Below are positions 19,088 through 29,361 of a stretch of 32,977 nt of DNA, in pieces. This DNA comes from a virus: the IMG/VR virus record IMGVR_UViG_3300047311_000196, positions 1 through 32,977 of that record. One strand, 5' to 3'. The notes below the pieces were generated by a model. The model had not been told where the DNA came from and searched no databases. It was given only the letters and a program-made list of their open reading frames with translations. The stretch's first letter is position 1, and each line of letters begins with the position of its first letter. A program made the position numbers and the translations under genes.

Positions 19088-19519
19088 TCAGCTATTCTGT
19101 GAGGGACCGGTGAGAGGCCACATGCGTGCGATCAGGTCGGCGGCGGTAAGCTGTCCCGCCCGGAACTGATCAATGGTGGTCACGGTAGATCTGTTGGCCT
19201 CCGTGCCGTGATAACCCTGTGAATCGGGACCGTCCGCTGAGTTGTTAACCGCCGTGCTTACACAAGTCCCCGCGACTGACAGTGAGTCAGTTGCGGTGAT
19301 GGTAGCGGTAAAGGTGCCAGCAATCAGGGTCGCTGGTCCCCGGCCAGCCACAAGGGCCTGAGTGTCATTGATCCTGGTAAGCGTGAAACCCGCTGGGAGA
19401 GCACCAGATGTAACAGCCCACGTATAGGGAGCGGTGCCACCAGATGCGGTCAGGAACAACTGGTAGTGAGCGTTCTTCTTCGGTGCTGGTAGCGCCGAGG
19501 GGCTAACAGTAACGGCCAT
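19088..19519 (-). CDS. Ig-like (He_PIG) protein with C-terminal extension
   Basis: The product is 143 aa. Residues 1-90 are an Ig-like domain: VTVSPSALPAPKKNAHYQLF, then SGGTAPYTWAVTSGALPAGF and GTFTATITATDSLSVAGT. Residues 95-143 are a non-Ig extension ending IDQFRAGQLTAADLIARMWP, with a short amphipathic helix. The gene follows the gp6-like connector gene with 12 bases between. It is in the same frame as the connector, separated by a single TAA and a few codons. A GGAGA ribosome site lies 7 bases before the ATG. It is a likely virion decoration or neck-associated protein, inferred from domain and place. Confidence 0.72.
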   Translation of the reverse strand: MAVTVSPSALPAPKKNAHYQLFLTASGGTAPYTWAVTSGALPAGFTLTRINDTQALVAGRGPATLIAGTFTATITATDSLSVAGTCVSTAVNNSADGPDSQGYHGTEANRSTVTTIDQFRAGQLTAADLIARMWPLTGPSQNS

Positions 19520-19531
19520 TTGGGTTCTCCA

Positions 19532-20176
19532 TTATCCTATAATCGGCCCGGAACGATATGCCTTGATCATCTCAATGATACGCCACGGTATTCCGATGTT
19601 GATCGACTGTATTCCCGCCTCTGGACCGGAACGTACCTCGCCCTGGTCTGTCGCCCCAAAACCGTACTGAGAAGTCTGCTGACTGGCTCGCTGCTGGGAG
19701 TTCTGCCACCAGAAGGCGATCAGTTCCAGCTCCGCCAGCTTGATCAGTGGCGGTACCGGCAGTCTTCCGGCTGTCCAGGTAACACGAATGTTGGATTTCC
19801 CTCGCATGAACGGGATAACTACGTTACCCGCAGTTCGCCTGGTGATCTCGCCGGTCTCGTCGTTGTCGATAGAGTACGCGAACATGGATCCGGCGCCAGT
19901 GCTGTTCGGCTGAACGTTGTCAAGCTCGTAGCTGGCGAATCCCCAGTTTTCCAGTACGCCCTCGATACTGATGATCGGTACCTTGTTCAGCCAGATGGCC
20001 GACTCCCCGCCATCGTAAACATCATCGTAAGTATGCGGGAGGATCTCGCCGCATTCTTTACGGATGGCATCATCAGCCGCGTCGATGTGAAACTGTAGTG
20101 CCGGGTCATCCTGGGTATTTGCGATGGGGTAGCGCAAATGCGCTCTTACTTCGTCCAAGGTCACAATGTTGGCCAT
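19532..20176 (-). CDS. Head-tail connector protein, gp6-like
   Basis: The product is 214 aa from ATG 20176, chosen because AGAAGGA lies 8 bases before it. A longer frame starting at 20278 has no such site and would run into the oppositely directed endonuclease gene. The N-terminus (IVTLDEVRAHLRYP) and the helix ALQFHIDAADDAIRKECGEI are the classic opening of the gp6-like/phage_connect_1 family. The middle is beta-rich. The C-terminus has PPLIKLAELELIAFWWQNSQ, a helix typical of these connectors. It forms part of the ring under the portal. It is the first head-tail gene after the capsid gene, although the endonuclease gene lies between them. Confidence 0.82.
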   Translation of the reverse strand: MANIVTLDEVRAHLRYPIANTQDDPALQFHIDAADDAIRKECGEILPHTYDDVYDGGESAIWLNKVPIISIEGVLENWGFASYELDNVQPNSTGAGSMFAYSIDNDETGEITRRTAGNVVIPFMRGKSNIRVTWTAGRLPVPPLIKLAELELIAFWWQNSQQRASQQTSQYGFGATDQGEVRSGPEAGIQSINIGIPWRIIEMIKAYRSGPIIG

Positions 20177-20212
20177 TGTTGGATTCCTTCTACCTCCGGT
20201 CGGCTTCCTTGC

Positions 20213-20233
20213 TGGTACACTGTCATCAGGAGG
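20213..20233 (+). promoter_or_regulatory. Extended -10 element and ribosome site of the endonuclease gene
   Basis: TGGTACACT at 20213-20221 has the TGnTAnnnT pattern of an extended -10. AGGAGG at 20228-20233 is the ribosome site, 6 bases before the ATG at 20240. No clear -35 is visible. The 63-bp spacer it sits in also holds the ribosome site of the divergent connector gene. Confidence 0.4.
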
Positions 20234-20239
20234 TGTGTC

Positions 20240-20866
20240 ATGGCCAGAAAAGCCCTGGTTATCCCGGTAGGAACCCACCAGCCGAACGGGCGGCTAGCTA
20301 CGGTGGGTGAGACCAAGATCCAGACGGTAGGCGTGAACCCAGTCATGTACCGAAGCTTCGTGGACTGTATCTGTGATTGCGGAGCTAGCACTACCATCTC
20401 AGCGGCTAAGTTCCTGAGTGAAGCCACCAAATCTTGCGGGTGTCACAGACGTGATCATCTAGCCAAGGTTGCTGCGAATCGTCATCGGGGGCCAGAATAT
20501 CCTCGTGTGCCTGCCCACTACGGCCCAGCGCTTCTGGAAGAACAGGGACCAATCTGTGCTTGGCCCTTGTGCAACGAAGCTCTGACGGGTTCCATTAGTG
20601 TTGATCACGACAGACGACACTGCGATTCCAGACTTTGCTGCGCCTACTGTCCTCGCGGATTGGTGCATCAACGTTGTAACAGTGAAATAACAGTGTTCGA
20701 ACGACGTAGGAACGTTCTCGTACTTCCCGATTCAGTTATTAGATATCTGGATTACCGACGATCTACCCCTGTGTCTTCTTCCGGGAGAACCCGAGAAGAC
20801 CAACTAGGAGGTTGGGCGGCCAGGCGAGGCATTCCCGACCGCCCTTCCTCGTCTGAGGGCGACTAG
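20240..20866 (+). CDS. Homing-type endonuclease: zinc-binding N-domain plus endonuclease VII-like HNH core
   Basis: The product is 208 aa from ATG 20240, the start with an AGGAGG. Residues 43-68 carry CICDCG ... SCGC, a zinc-binding-type motif often seen before HNH domains of phage AP2/HNH homing enzymes. Residues 104-152 fit the endonuclease VII/HNH fold: CAWPLC (Cys106, Cys111), VDHDRRH (His123), CAYC (Cys134, Cys137) and HQRCN (Asn147). These supply both the zinc knuckle and the His-Asn catalytic pair. The C-terminal 40 residues look disordered. It is the only gene facing right inside the leftward structural block and it ends two bases from the capsid stop. That fits a mobile insertion between capsid and connector. 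Endonuclease VII-like Holliday-junction resolution is an alternative. Confidence 0.8.
   Translation: MARKALVIPVGTHQPNGRLATVGETKIQTVGVNPVMYRSFVDCICDCGASTTISAAKFLSEATKSCGCHRRDHLAKVAANRHRGPEYPRVPAHYGPALLEEQGPICAWPLCNEALTGSISVDHDRRHCDSRLCCAYCPRGLVHQRCNSEITVFERRRNVLVLPDSVIRYLDYRRSTPVSSSGRTREDQLGGWAARRGIPDRPSSSEGD
20808..20850 (-). terminator. GC-rich hairpin just after the capsid gene, possible attenuator
   Basis: On the minus strand, 18 bases past the capsid stop, GAGG-AA-GGGCGG and CCGCCC-AA-CCTC can pair with an internal AA/AA mismatch. There is no T run. The position suggests partial termination or 3'-end protection of the capsid message. On the other strand the same bases code the end of the endonuclease. 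Confidence 0.35.
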
Positions 20867-20868
20867 GA

Positions 20869-22221
20869 TTAGCTAGCCGGTGCTCGGTACATGGCGACTG
20901 ATCGCAGGTCGTTGCTTCGAGCGTCCATTCTTACGAACCCCAAAAAACCCACCTGCAAAAAATCTGCGTACCTTTCGTCCAATCGCATAACGCCCGCCTG
21001 GTTGACCTGACGGACAACCATGCAGGTCTGGAAGTCACCGAAGTACATGCCACCGTCAGTTGAAGCGACGGTAGAAATGTCACCGATGTTCTGGTCGATC
21101 AGGACCGGGTAACCGTAGATACGGTCATCCCCGCCAAGCTGAACGTTCGGCTGCCACAGCGGGTGGCCCTGCTGGTCGGTAATACCACGGATCTTCCACT
21201 GGGTGTTGTCGTTCATGACCCAGGTGCAGCGACCGCTGGCACGGTATGCCGGGTCCACCTTTGCGGTCATGGCGATAACGTCATCGAAACCAGGCGTGCC
21301 ACTCGCCAGCTTGTTCAGCGGGGTAGCAACGTGGCCAATGGTGGTCACGGTACCGGCTGCGGTCGGCTGGAACACGCCGCCTGCTGGACCGGCCTTAACA
21401 CCGTATGCGGTAAGCGCGGTCTTCAGGCCCAGAAGCGCTGATGAACCGGTACCCGTGTGAAGCTCGGCAGCGACGAAGCGGCCAATGCTCTCACCGATAC
21501 GCTCGCGGACGAAGGTCTCCACATCGAACGCGCTGTCGTTAATTGCTTCGACAGACGCTAGCGCGACGTTGGAAGTGATCGTCCAGGCGTTCATCATGCC
21601 CTGGCCCAGCACGTAGTCCTGGAACCCGAGCTGAGTACCCTGAGCACCCACGTAGTTACCGACGATACCGGTCGGGTCAACGGTCGGCCACGGCATCGGG
21701 TTACCGGTTGAGGTTTCCACGATCTTGGCCACGTTCAGAAGACCACCGAACTGCTTCAGCGCAACCTGAAGGTTGGCCCAGAAGCCCTGCGGAACCAGGA
21801 AGCCAGCGTTAGAAGCGCCACCCACCGTGTAAAGGGCGTTAGCGTCGTTCGTAACACGCTGTTCCAGGCCTACCAGCGCACGGCGCTCTTCGCCGGACAG
21901 ACCGGCGATACCATGACGCAGGTAAGAGCCGAAAGCACGTTCGTGCGATTCCTTGCTCTTGGTCTCGAACTCGTCACGAGACTGACCAGCAGTCTCGGCA
22001 CCGCTCTCGCGGCCCTCTTCGAGCTTGTTGAAGTCAACGATCCTGCGAAGGTCTGTGTCGAGTGACCGCAGCTCCTTCTCACGACGGTCGTACTCAGCCG
22101 ACTCTTCGCCGCTGAGATCCCCGTTCTCGTTGAACTTCTCCATCAGCTCCTTCATGCCGCCGTAGACCATCGCGCGGTGCTCACGGATGGACCTCTCTCG
22201 CTGTGACATAACTCTGGGCAT
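20869..22221 (-). CDS. Major capsid protein, HK97 fold
   Basis: The product is 450 aa. About 1-85 is a charged coiled coil (MKELMEKFNENGDLSGEESA, then KELRSLDTDLRRIVDFNKLE). This matches the delta-type scaffolding domain that the protease removes. The mature part begins around 110-130 and shows HK97 hallmarks: GGASNAGFLVPQGFW, the long helix region with EAINDSAFDVETFVRERIGE, a GRCTWVMNDNTQW strand and YGYPVLIDQNIGD. The end is GFLGFVRMDARSND. An AAGGAG lies 7 bases before the ATG at 22221. It is preceded by a GIY-YIG gene and a 115-bp spacer, and followed by an opposite-strand endonuclease gene. That bracketing is unusual for a capsid gene. Confidence 0.92.
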   Translation of the reverse strand: MPRVMSQRERSIREHRAMVYGGMKELMEKFNENGDLSGEESAEYDRREKELRSLDTDLRRIVDFNKLEEGRESGAETAGQSRDEFETKSKESHERAFGSYLRHGIAGLSGEERRALVGLEQRVTNDANALYTVGGASNAGFLVPQGFWANLQVALKQFGGLLNVAKIVETSTGNPMPWPTVDPTGIVGNYVGAQGTQLGFQDYVLGQGMMNAWTITSNVALASVEAINDSAFDVETFVRERIGESIGRFVAAELHTGTGSSALLGLKTALTAYGVKAGPAGGVFQPTAAGTVTTIGHVATPLNKLASGTPGFDDVIAMTAKVDPAYRASGRCTWVMNDNTQWKIRGITDQQGHPLWQPNVQLGGDDRIYGYPVLIDQNIGDISTVASTDGGMYFGDFQTCMVVRQVNQAGVMRLDERYADFLQVGFLGFVRMDARSNDLRSVAMYRAPAS

Positions 22222-22336
22222 AGCCAGACTCCTTCTTGGGACAGTGCCTCGTTGAATCGGACTCTCCCCGGAGTGCTATCGCGGCTGCCGGGTACCTAAC
22301 CCTCTTGCGGGTCCTGGAACTGCAAGGGCGGGCGTT
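22222..22336 (-). other. 115-bp structured spacer before the capsid gene
   Basis: No gene fits. On the minus strand CCCTTGC can pair with GCAAGAGGG (one bulged A), ACCC-GCAAGA-GGGT is an alternative hairpin, and ACTC-CGGGGA-GAGT forms a third. It ends with the capsid ribosome site (AAGGAG). It could be a leader that tunes capsid translation, or a remnant of the homing-gene insertion. It did not match tRNA. Confidence 0.35.
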
Positions 22337-22837
22337 CTACGAATTGTGAACTATATTCCATATTGGGCCAGTGGCCTCAATTAGGATTCGTTCAACCCTA
22401 TCCATGTGATCTTCCGATTCACATCGGAAAAACTCCACATGATGAACTTGTTCTCGTTTTATTGGGTCAGACATATGCTTTCCCAATCGGGCGTAGATAT
22501 TAGTGCTCTTACCGATATACAGCAAGGTGTCACCTTCCCCAACGAGAAAGTACACGTAACACCCGTCCACATCGGGAAGCCGGGAAGAACCGGTGAAGCG
22601 TCCTGTTTTCTTGCTCAGAGCGTCTACCTCGGTGGAGGTAAGCCCGAGAGTTCGGGCTAGCACACCGGTCCACTCCTGCTTCGTCTTTCCTGAGGTCTCC
22701 CGCCCGCTGAGAGTGTGACTCACATATTTGCGGGAGTACCCGGTAGCTGCGGCAATCTGGGCGATGTTGAGCCCACTGATCTTCAGGGTCCGTATTCGTT
22801 CAGTACGCTTCTGAATCTGGTCTGCGCTGAGTGACAT
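22337..22837 (-). CDS. GIY-YIG nuclease with N-terminal HTH, homing-type
   Basis: The product is 166 aa. Residues 5-50 look like a helix-turn-helix (RTLKISGLNIAQIAAATGYSRKYVSHTLSG). Residues 93-165 are a GIY-YIG nuclease: CYVYFLVGEGDTLLYIGKS (the GIY part replaced by CYVY), NIYARLGKH (Arg117), VERILIEATGPIWN (catalytic Glu149, Asn161). Such freestanding enzymes cut a target site and spread by repair. An AAGGA lies about 10 bases before the ATG. It sits on the same strand as the structural genes between protease and capsid, with 109- and 115-base spacers on each side that are longer than any other spacers within this block. That is consistent with insertion. Confidence 0.82.
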   Translation of the reverse strand: MSLSADQIQKRTERIRTLKISGLNIAQIAAATGYSRKYVSHTLSGRETSGKTKQEWTGVLARTLGLTSTEVDALSKKTGRFTGSSRLPDVDGCYVYFLVGEGDTLLYIGKSTNIYARLGKHMSDPIKREQVHHVEFFRCESEDHMDRVERILIEATGPIWNIVHNS

Positions 22838-22925
22838 GTCACGGCGTCCTTCCGGTACGTGTGGTCTTAGCTACGATGCCCCTGTGCGGCCCTGAGCGGG
22901 TGCCTGCGGGGATACAACTGGTGGA

Positions 22926-22946: not shown

Positions 22947-24470
22947 TCAGCTAAGCTGGTTCAGGCGGGCTACAGCCTCGTCCAGCGTGCGCTGCATTCT
23001 CTCGATGGTGAGCGGCTCAGGCTTGCTCTCCTCGGCCCTCTGGGCTTCAGCTTCAGCCTGCTCACGCGCGGTCTCGATGGTCTCCTGGGACAGGTACGGC
23101 TCGGCCAGGTTGATGATGTCCAGAGCGGTACTGGTCGGCGTCAGCCGCATGGCGAGGTCGTAGATCGCTACCATGTCACGCTGAGCGTCGTCGTTGGCTC
23201 CTGCGCCGATGTCACCGGCAGAAGACCAGTGCGGCGGGATCAGGTCCGGCAGGCTGAGGTCGATGGCCAGGTCGATAGCCGCTACTCGCTGCTCGCGGTT
23301 AGAGGCGTCCTTGATGGCCTGTGCCAGCTTGTTGGCATCCTCGGTCCTGACCACGTTGGTCGGGTACACCCCAATGTCAGTCATACGCTCGTTTTCTCCC
23401 TCGGGGTCGTATCCTTCAACCATTTCACGGAAGTCGCAAAGTGCTTCCCACTCTTCCATGTTCGCTTCTGAAACCTTGGCGCCGATCCTCTTCAGTGCGC
23501 TGCGGATCTTGGACTTGATGTTAGCGAGCTGCTGAGCCGTGTACTTGGCTGCGTTCTTGGCTGCGTTGATATACGACCAAGCGGCCTTGATATGCTTTTC
23601 GTTATCTAGCGGGTAGCGCTTCTTCTTGTCGCTCTGGTAGCCGGGGTCAGCATAGGTAACGTCACCATATGGCTTGCTGGAGTCGCGGGACTCTTCGTCT
23701 TCCTCAGACTCGTCCTGGTTCTCGCTCTCTTCACCTGAGGCACGAAGCTCGTCGCACACGTGCTCCTCGCGGTCTTCCATCTTGGCGCCGCATGAGGCGC
23801 AGTAGTCGCCAGAAGATGTCTTGTCCTGTGACATTGACTCACCGCAGCTAGTGCAGAACGAGCCGTACTCCTGCTGCGATCCGCATTCACCGCAAGTGTA
23901 AAGATCGGAGTAGGTGGCTGCTGCGGCCCTCTCGTCCTTGGCTCCTCTGGCTGTCCGGATCTGATCACGGGCAGAAACCGAGGTATCGCCGTAGGCGGGG
24001 AATGTGCAGACGGAGATCTCGTGGACCTTCATTTCCAGGATCTCCCTGCGAGTGCCGGTCATGGGAGAGGCGGTATTACCCTCGTCATCAGTCCACTTGT
24101 CCTTGATGACCTCGAACCCGAATGAGCAGCCGCCGTAGTTCTTGGCCCTGACGTTCTTGATAACGTCATCGGCGTAAGATGTGTCGGCGGGAGTAGCAAC
24201 CCAGTCACCGCCGTTTTGACCATCTTTCAGCTCTAGTGTACCAGCCGACATTCTTGCCAACGGCTGATGGGTCTGATGATTGTCCAGAAGAACGATGTCA
24301 CCATCGTTAATGCTCTTCCTTCCAGCACCAGTTTTGATGGTTTCCCGGAAACCGGCAGGGCCTCTGCCGATCTGTGTGGGAGACCCGTACACCCAGGCGC
24401 GTCCGGTGAGGGTTCTGTCTTCTCCAGCGCTCGGAGCAGCCTTGCGCATGTATCGGTATTCCATGGTCAT
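22947..24470 (-). CDS. Prohead protease fused to zinc ribbons and a DUF6582-like domain
   Basis: The product is 507 aa. Residues 1-165 are an HK97-type (U35) prohead protease: TLTGRAWVYGSPTQIG, LLDNHQTHQPLARM (His65), CSFGFEV (Ser116) and EMKVHEISVCTFPAYGDTSV (His150, Glu151). It would cleave the capsid delta domain and itself during maturation. Residues 190-240 hold two zinc ribbons (YTCGECG ... FCTSCG, Cys193/196/206/209; YCASCG ... HVC). An acidic linker (240-265) leads to VTYADPGYQSDKKKRYPLDN and HIKAAWSYINAAKNAAKY, matching the DUF6582 type (about 270-330). The last 180 residues are helical with a C-terminal coiled coil. Usual proteases of this family are near 200 aa, so the extension could also serve as scaffold. 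It overlaps the portal stop by 4 bases (ATGA). Confidence 0.88.
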   Translation of the reverse strand: MTMEYRYMRKAAPSAGEDRTLTGRAWVYGSPTQIGRGPAGFRETIKTGAGRKSINDGDIVLLDNHQTHQPLARMSAGTLELKDGQNGGDWVATPADTSYADDVIKNVRAKNYGGCSFGFEVIKDKWTDDEGNTASPMTGTRREILEMKVHEISVCTFPAYGDTSVSARDQIRTARGAKDERAAAATYSDLYTCGECGSQQEYGSFCTSCGESMSQDKTSSGDYCASCGAKMEDREEHVCDELRASGEESENQDESEEDEESRDSSKPYGDVTYADPGYQSDKKKRYPLDNEKHIKAAWSYINAAKNAAKYTAQQLANIKSKIRSALKRIGAKVSEANMEEWEALCDFREMVEGYDPEGENERMTDIGVYPTNVVRTEDANKLAQAIKDASNREQRVAAIDLAIDLSLPDLIPPHWSSAGDIGAGANDDAQRDMVAIYDLAMRLTPTSTALDIINLAEPYLSQETIETAREQAEAEAQRAEESKPEPLTIERMQRTLDEAVARLNQLS

Positions 24471-28998: not shown

Positions 28999-29361
28999 TT
29001 AACCTCCGTAGGCGACAGCCTGCCCGGCAGCGATCATTGTTTCCCCGAAATCACTTCCGTCAGGAAGGGTGAGGGCTCCGTCGAACCTGCCGCCGTATTT
29101 GTCCCAGCCGTAGCTGAGCACGGTCACGTAGGTTCCGGGCGGGCACAGGTTGAGTGCATAGTCACGAGCGGTCTTACCGGCTGCTGTATTCAGCTCGGGA
29201 GCGTTGATACCGTAGATACGGCAGGAGATAACTGGCTTTCCTTTCAGGTCATACCCGTTGAGAAGGATACCGAACCCAAGATCTACGTCGAGATGGCAAG
29301 TGTCTCCGTCTCTCCAGTCTTTTACCAGCGCTGGGTATGGCCCGAACATTTCTTGCGCCAT
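28999..29361 (-). CDS. Staphylococcal nuclease-like (thermonuclease) protein
   Basis: The product is 120 aa. KDWRDGDTCHLDVDLGFG and CRIYGINAPE are the SNase signature. Arg48 and Glu56 keep the 8-residue spacing of the catalytic pair, and DKYGGRFDG supplies the second arginine (Arg92). GKTARDYALNL, then GETMIAAGQAVAY, complete the fold. All three catalytic residues are present, so it may be an active calcium-dependent nuclease. It has no signal peptide, so it acts in the cell or the virion. The ATG overlaps the stop of the upstream GIY-YIG gene (TAATG). A role in degrading host DNA or processing phage DNA is inferred. Confidence 0.82.
   Translation of the reverse strand: MAQEMFGPYPALVKDWRDGDTCHLDVDLGFGILLNGYDLKGKPVISCRIYGINAPELNTAAGKTARDYALNLCPPGTYVTVLSYGWDKYGGRFDGALTLPDGSDFGETMIAAGQAVAYGG

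Follow-up and report, generated by a model that had tools for sequence, protein, structure and literature searches.

HEG-islands are phage loci in which essential modules, including capsid genes, are bracketed by homing endonuclease genes; in the published islands, these modules serve the capsid, the tail and replication (Barth, Dunham and Seed 2023, PMC10448857). In phage T4, the uncharacterised GIY-YIG gene segD lies between genes 23 and 24 (PMC2988022). F-CphI is a homing endonuclease of the endonuclease VII (EndoVII) type, also known as DHHRN (PMC6083498). In Nocardia phage NBR1, the GIY-YIG gene gp07 is located between the genes for the head maturation protease and the major head protein.

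The locus described here belongs to an uncultivated tailed phage and was analysed in the 32,977-base IMG/VR virus record IMGVR_UViG_3300047311_000196, the whole of which is called the window. Its major capsid gene lies between an HNH/EndoVII-like gene and a GIY-YIG gene. Judged from sequence comparison, both are probably free-standing (intron-less) homing-type endonuclease genes placed in the non-coding junctions on either side of the capsid gene, and together they would form a minimal HEG-island. As in HEG-islands, an essential gene is flanked at both ends by homing-type nuclease genes of different families, and the occupancy of the sites is variable. Unlike in the published islands, the bracketed part is a lone capsid gene, with a GIY-YIG gene on one side and an EndoVII-type gene on the other. 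In a HEG-island, carriers are also much more alike in the cargo than in the remaining genome, which is not the case for the capsid gene here. The likeness in function to a HEG-island stands on the bracketing of the capsid, and shared cargo is not supported. The initial annotation of this DNA had considered two such genes in one locus uncommon, a statement contradicted by the published islands (PMC10448857). This kind of arrangement is already described; what is less usual here is the reversed order of the GIY-YIG and HTH parts and the EndoVII-type partner.

Two nuclease-like genes beside the capsid gene

On its minus strand, the window holds a tailed-phage structural block, in which profile searches identified the terminase small and large subunits, the portal and the prohead protease. 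Further minus-strand structural genes are those for the major capsid protein, the connector, tail proteins and an endolysin-like glycosyl hydrolase. The prohead protease gene (22947..24470, minus strand) has a long C-terminal extension and matches Peptidase_S78 at 2e-30, the major capsid gene (20869..22221, minus strand) matches Phage_capsid at 4e-42, and the head-tail connector gene (19532..20179, minus strand) matches Phage_connect_1/phrog_442. The two nuclease ORFs were found at the positions and on the strands first assigned to them, with the same neighbours, and gene calls and profile matches agree that the HNH gene parts capsid from connector and the GIY-YIG gene parts protease from capsid. 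Upstream of the terminase small subunit, a weak staphylococcal-nuclease-like match (0.0016, under the cut-off) was seen at 28999-29361 on the minus strand. A nucleotide search of isolated phages with the window gave no match, and no host was found by way of relatives in bacterial genomes. The EndoVII and GIY-YIG matches to actinobacteriophages are only a hint of the possible host. A promoter scan detected no sigma-70 promoter-like sites, and terminator-like sites were at chance level.

The GIY-YIG endonuclease-like gene (22337..22837, minus strand) encodes 166 amino acids, with an N-terminal HTH part at residues 21-74 and a C-terminal GIY-YIG domain at residues 93-157. The latter matches Pfam GIY-YIG PF01541 at 1.1e-5, above the gathering score, and the former matches HTH_31 at 1.7e-5, slightly under its cut-off. 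The AF2 model was modest, and its top PDB matches were UvrC GIY-YIG domains with a weak E of 0.02. The protein keeps Y94/Y96, Y107-I-G109, R117, H121, E154 and N161, and sequence inspection found the catalytic Tyr, Arg, Glu and Asn to be invariant in three carriers. The catalytic roles of its Tyr, Arg, His, Glu and Asn are presumed from general knowledge of the family. Members of the I-TevI/Seg family likewise combine a GIY-YIG catalytic domain with an HTH DNA-binding part; compared with I-TevI, the order in the window protein is reversed. NBR1 gp07 has the same position as this gene, and its protein shares 28% identity over 118 aa, nuclease domain included, with no similarity detected over the first ~50 residues.

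The HNH/EndoVII-like gene (20240..20866, plus strand) encodes 208 amino acids, and its strand opposes the structural operon. An AGGAGG ribosome site precedes ATG 20240, which is therefore a better start than the longer ATG at 20138. A zinc-cysteine module at residues ~38-83 is followed by an EndoVII-like domain at ~90-170. The N-terminal module matches the PHROG 'HNH endonuclease' at 6e-7, and the C-terminal half, scanned alone, matches the PHROG 'endonuclease VII' at 2.3e-4. A Pfam search with the protein gave no match, its AF2 model (pLDDT 31) was unusable, and a PDB sequence search returned nothing informative. Residues ~175-208 are an antisense reading of the conserved stem-loop after the capsid stop codon. 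Like T4 segD, the gene is free-standing, lies beside the major capsid gene and is oriented against its neighbours, but the nuclease families differ. A separate EndoVII gene was also seen in the 97,339 bp record of the diverged carrier L005 (92991-93266), with a strong PF02945 match and near replication-type genes; it is probably that phage's own resolvase. The L008 record contains a separate EndoVII gene at 20430-20717.

F-CphI resembles the HNH protein in being encoded by a free-standing gene and in carrying its EndoVII-type catalytic domain behind an N-terminal part. The motifs C106-X4-C111, D122-H123-D124, R139 and C146-N147 are kept. Unlike in F-CphI and the DHHRN enzymes, Arg125 takes the place of the second DHDH His in both carriers, and His143 that of the first CX2C Cys. 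In T4 EndoVII, this second His is essential (PMC6083498). DHDR likewise occurs in an annotated Streptomyces phage homologue, and in the L005 record the second EndoVII gene also has His at the position of the CX2C Cys. Of the catalytic residues, whose loss across the family the initial annotation had named as a point that would refute homing, most are kept in both proteins; the DHDH His and one zinc Cys of the HNH protein are replaced. Because most catalytic residues are kept and the DHDH His is Arg, nuclease activity is likely but not certain.

These replacements also bear on the explanation that both genes are former homing endonucleases, now decaying or repurposed (for example, with the GIY-YIG protein repressing the capsid via its HTH) and kept by chance or for regulation. 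The Arg in both HNH copies would agree with it, as would the location of the GIY-YIG gene inside the capsid leader, and I-TevI doubles as a repressor (PMC10448857). However, the two diverged carriers have both ORFs intact and most of the catalytic residues unaltered. Genes in decay should show breaks, which makes this explanation rather improbable.

Occupancy and history of the two sites

IMG/VR was scanned with the capsid, protease, connector, portal and both nucleases, and 10 relatives with a capsid identity of at least 76% were obtained. Loci with and without each gene were searched for among them, as the initial annotation had proposed, and empty sites were found at both positions, so that the close relatives do not all carry both genes. 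The GIY-YIG gene is present in the window, L002, L003 and L005 and missing from L004 and L006-L010; its insertion covers approximately 22297..22874 (minus strand). The HNH gene is present in the window, L005 and L002, in the last as the gene end only, at the contig edge, and is absent from L003, L004, L006, L008, L009 and L011. Its insertion covers approximately 20180..20809 (plus strand), in the space that separates the connector gene from the capsid 3' stem-loop. In the window, the protease and capsid genes are 725 bp apart; where the GIY-YIG gene is lacking, the distance is 139-187 bp in L004, L006, L007, L009 and L010 and 269 bp in L008. From capsid to connector, the gap measures 691 bp in the window and 694 bp in L005, compared with 72-96 bp in the six relatives that lack the HNH gene. 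Both genes bracket the capsid in the window and L005, and the near-twin L003 shares the GIY-YIG gene with the window and lacks the HNH gene. Among known relatives, each nuclease gene has only two diverged carrier lineages, namely window/L002/L003 and L005 for GIY-YIG, and window/L002 and L005 for HNH. Neither nuclease was matched in the scanned stretches of L024, L025, L044, L047, L054 and others with ~43-53% capsid identity. Unrelated small genes were seen in the capsid-connector junction of L026 (2535-3193), L051 (5978-6277) and L053 (8328-8845), which suggests that this junction is a general insertion spot.

The distribution of the nuclease genes conflicts with the backbone tree. A clade of the three GIY-YIG carriers was rejected in the protease tree (AU p=3.1e-7), and the empty L010 is sister to window plus L003 in both the protease (98/98) and portal (100/97) trees. 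Identity at 4-fold sites between the window and L005 is 0.67 for GIY-YIG and 0.60 for HNH, compared with 0.43 for terminase, 0.48 for portal, 0.40 for protease, 0.34 for connector and 0.39 for the next gene. Fisher tests gave p values of 1e-4 to 9e-3 (GIY-YIG vs protease 1e-4, HNH vs connector 1e-3), on 4-fold sites that are few and whose similarity could be inflated by unequal codon constraint between genes. For the capsid gene, the identity is 0.59 between the window and L005 and 0.56-0.60 between the window and the non-carriers L004, L006 and L010. Because the capsid is equally similar to non-carriers, the value of 0.59 does not show capsid co-transfer and more likely reflects codon constraint. 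Movement of the capsid block as a unit is not supported, as silent-site identity is no higher between double carriers.

The flank footprint was compared at the HNH site; the GIY-YIG site has no gene-free near-twin among the relatives. From portal to mid-capsid, the window and L003 are mostly at least 97% (97-100%) identical, apart from some lower bins in the protease. Towards the HNH site, identity falls to 88% at ~21400, 84% at 21100, 81% at 21025-20950 and, at the junction itself, 62%; past the junction it is 88-96%, with recovery beyond the connector start. The capsid 3' end (20870..21100, minus strand) forms a co-conversion-like tract in which the window has L005-type alleles, unlike its twin L003. 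The window carries the L005 base at 12/12 sites differing from L003 in 21026-21100, and in the 20740-21100 flank 53 of the 69 informative differing sites match L005 (p 9e-6). All 10 capsid sites that set both HNH carriers apart from every non-carrier fall within the final ~200 bp, although this clustering is weaker evidence than it appears because most window-L003 differences are also there. The gradient fits co-conversion around a double-strand break, and loss of the gene from L003 through exchange with an empty allele fits equally. The co-converted part of the capsid gene looks to be only the last ~200 bp or so, beside HNH. A second mosaic tract was seen in the gene after the connector (19230-19525), where the window agrees with L005 rather than with L003. 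Window-L003 differences cluster there as well, so the region recombines in general.

Such exchange of other segments, together with the unrelated small genes at the capsid-connector junction, is what ordinary mosaic recombination would leave, with accessory genes swapped along with neighbouring segments and no nuclease-driven bias. This is nevertheless quite unlikely, since nuclease genes of two unrelated families occupy the two sites, these genes exceed most neighbours in silent-site similarity, and the gradient is centred on the insertion. It is highly improbable that the HNH gene encodes the phage's own packaging nuclease (HK97 gp74-like) or recombination nuclease (an EndoVII-type Holliday resolvase) instead of a homing enzyme: its catalytic half resembles the phage EndoVII family, resolvases included, and HNH nucleases working with terminase are known (PMC10448857), but the gene is missing in the near-twin and five further relatives, lies far from terminase and against the structural operon, and the 97 kb L005 record has its separate EndoVII gene at ~93 kb.

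Structured elements around the capsid gene

A conserved stem-loop with the loop AAUGCCUCG lies directly after the capsid stop codon (20803..20851, minus strand), and the HNH gene is inserted just 3' of it. It consists of a ~9-18 bp stem and a ~9 nt loop and occurs in every relative checked (L003-L006, L008, L009, L011, L024-L026, L044, L047, L051 and L053-L055, plus the window). The stem is diverged but covarying, with compensatory changes in 9/10 tested pairs. The loop consensus is NNKGCCUCR in most relatives, and the loops of L053 and L024 deviate. An Rfam search gave no match, including for the stem-loop.

At the other end of the capsid gene, a conserved structured leader, also found in L004 and L006-L010, is interrupted in carriers by the GIY-YIG gene. 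The conserved leader element CCCC...GGGG (22879..22911, minus strand) lies 5' of the insertion. A second leader hairpin (22264..22293, minus strand) lies 3' of it and differs in sequence between carriers and non-carriers, with compensatory changes recognised by eye (CGAG/CUCG to AGAG/CUCU and GCC/GGC to GUC/GAC). The first hairpin was rejected as a single covarying structure, as its pairings are inconsistent between subgroups, and a leader pattern scan found no additional alleles. The leader motif YGAGGC (near 22245-22251) and the capsid 3' loop GCCUCR (20825-20831) are complementary and covary between subclades, with C-G in the window clade and U-A in L026, L051 and L055. GAGG is also Shine-Dalgarno-like, so this pairing may be trivial and is a lead only. 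It is unlikely that both nuclease genes are targeted to two conserved RNA-coding elements on either side of the capsid gene, namely the split leader and the stem-loop, whose loop might pair with YGAGGC. If this were true, homing would make use of a capsid-mRNA regulatory element not described before, and capsid expression could change upon insertion.

Proposed homing and its meaning

The preferred reading is that both genes are homing-type endonuclease genes. Transfer would take place where a carrier and a non-carrier phage infect one cell. The nuclease would cut a conserved site in the non-carrier DNA, at the junction or close to it, and repair would copy the carrier allele, moving the nuclease gene and some flank. 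Cleavage, target sites, transfer direction and cooperation of both genes are the parts of this proposal that we infer. Homing, as put forward in the initial annotation, is supported by the empty sites at both positions, the discordant distribution in the trees, the silent-site similarity above that of non-capsid neighbours and the HNH flank footprint; the added suggestion that the whole capsid block is spread or protected finds no support in the capsid 4-fold identities. Endonucleases encoded in a group I intron or an intein were rejected, as the genes sit between intact genes, no coding gene is split and there is no Rfam match.

Alleles that are full, half-empty or empty for two unrelated homing-type nucleases occur naturally around this one essential gene, and the HEG-islands gain an EndoVII-type case. 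The window and L003 are a near-identical pair one insertion apart, which makes co-conversion and marker exclusion around the capsid gene directly testable.
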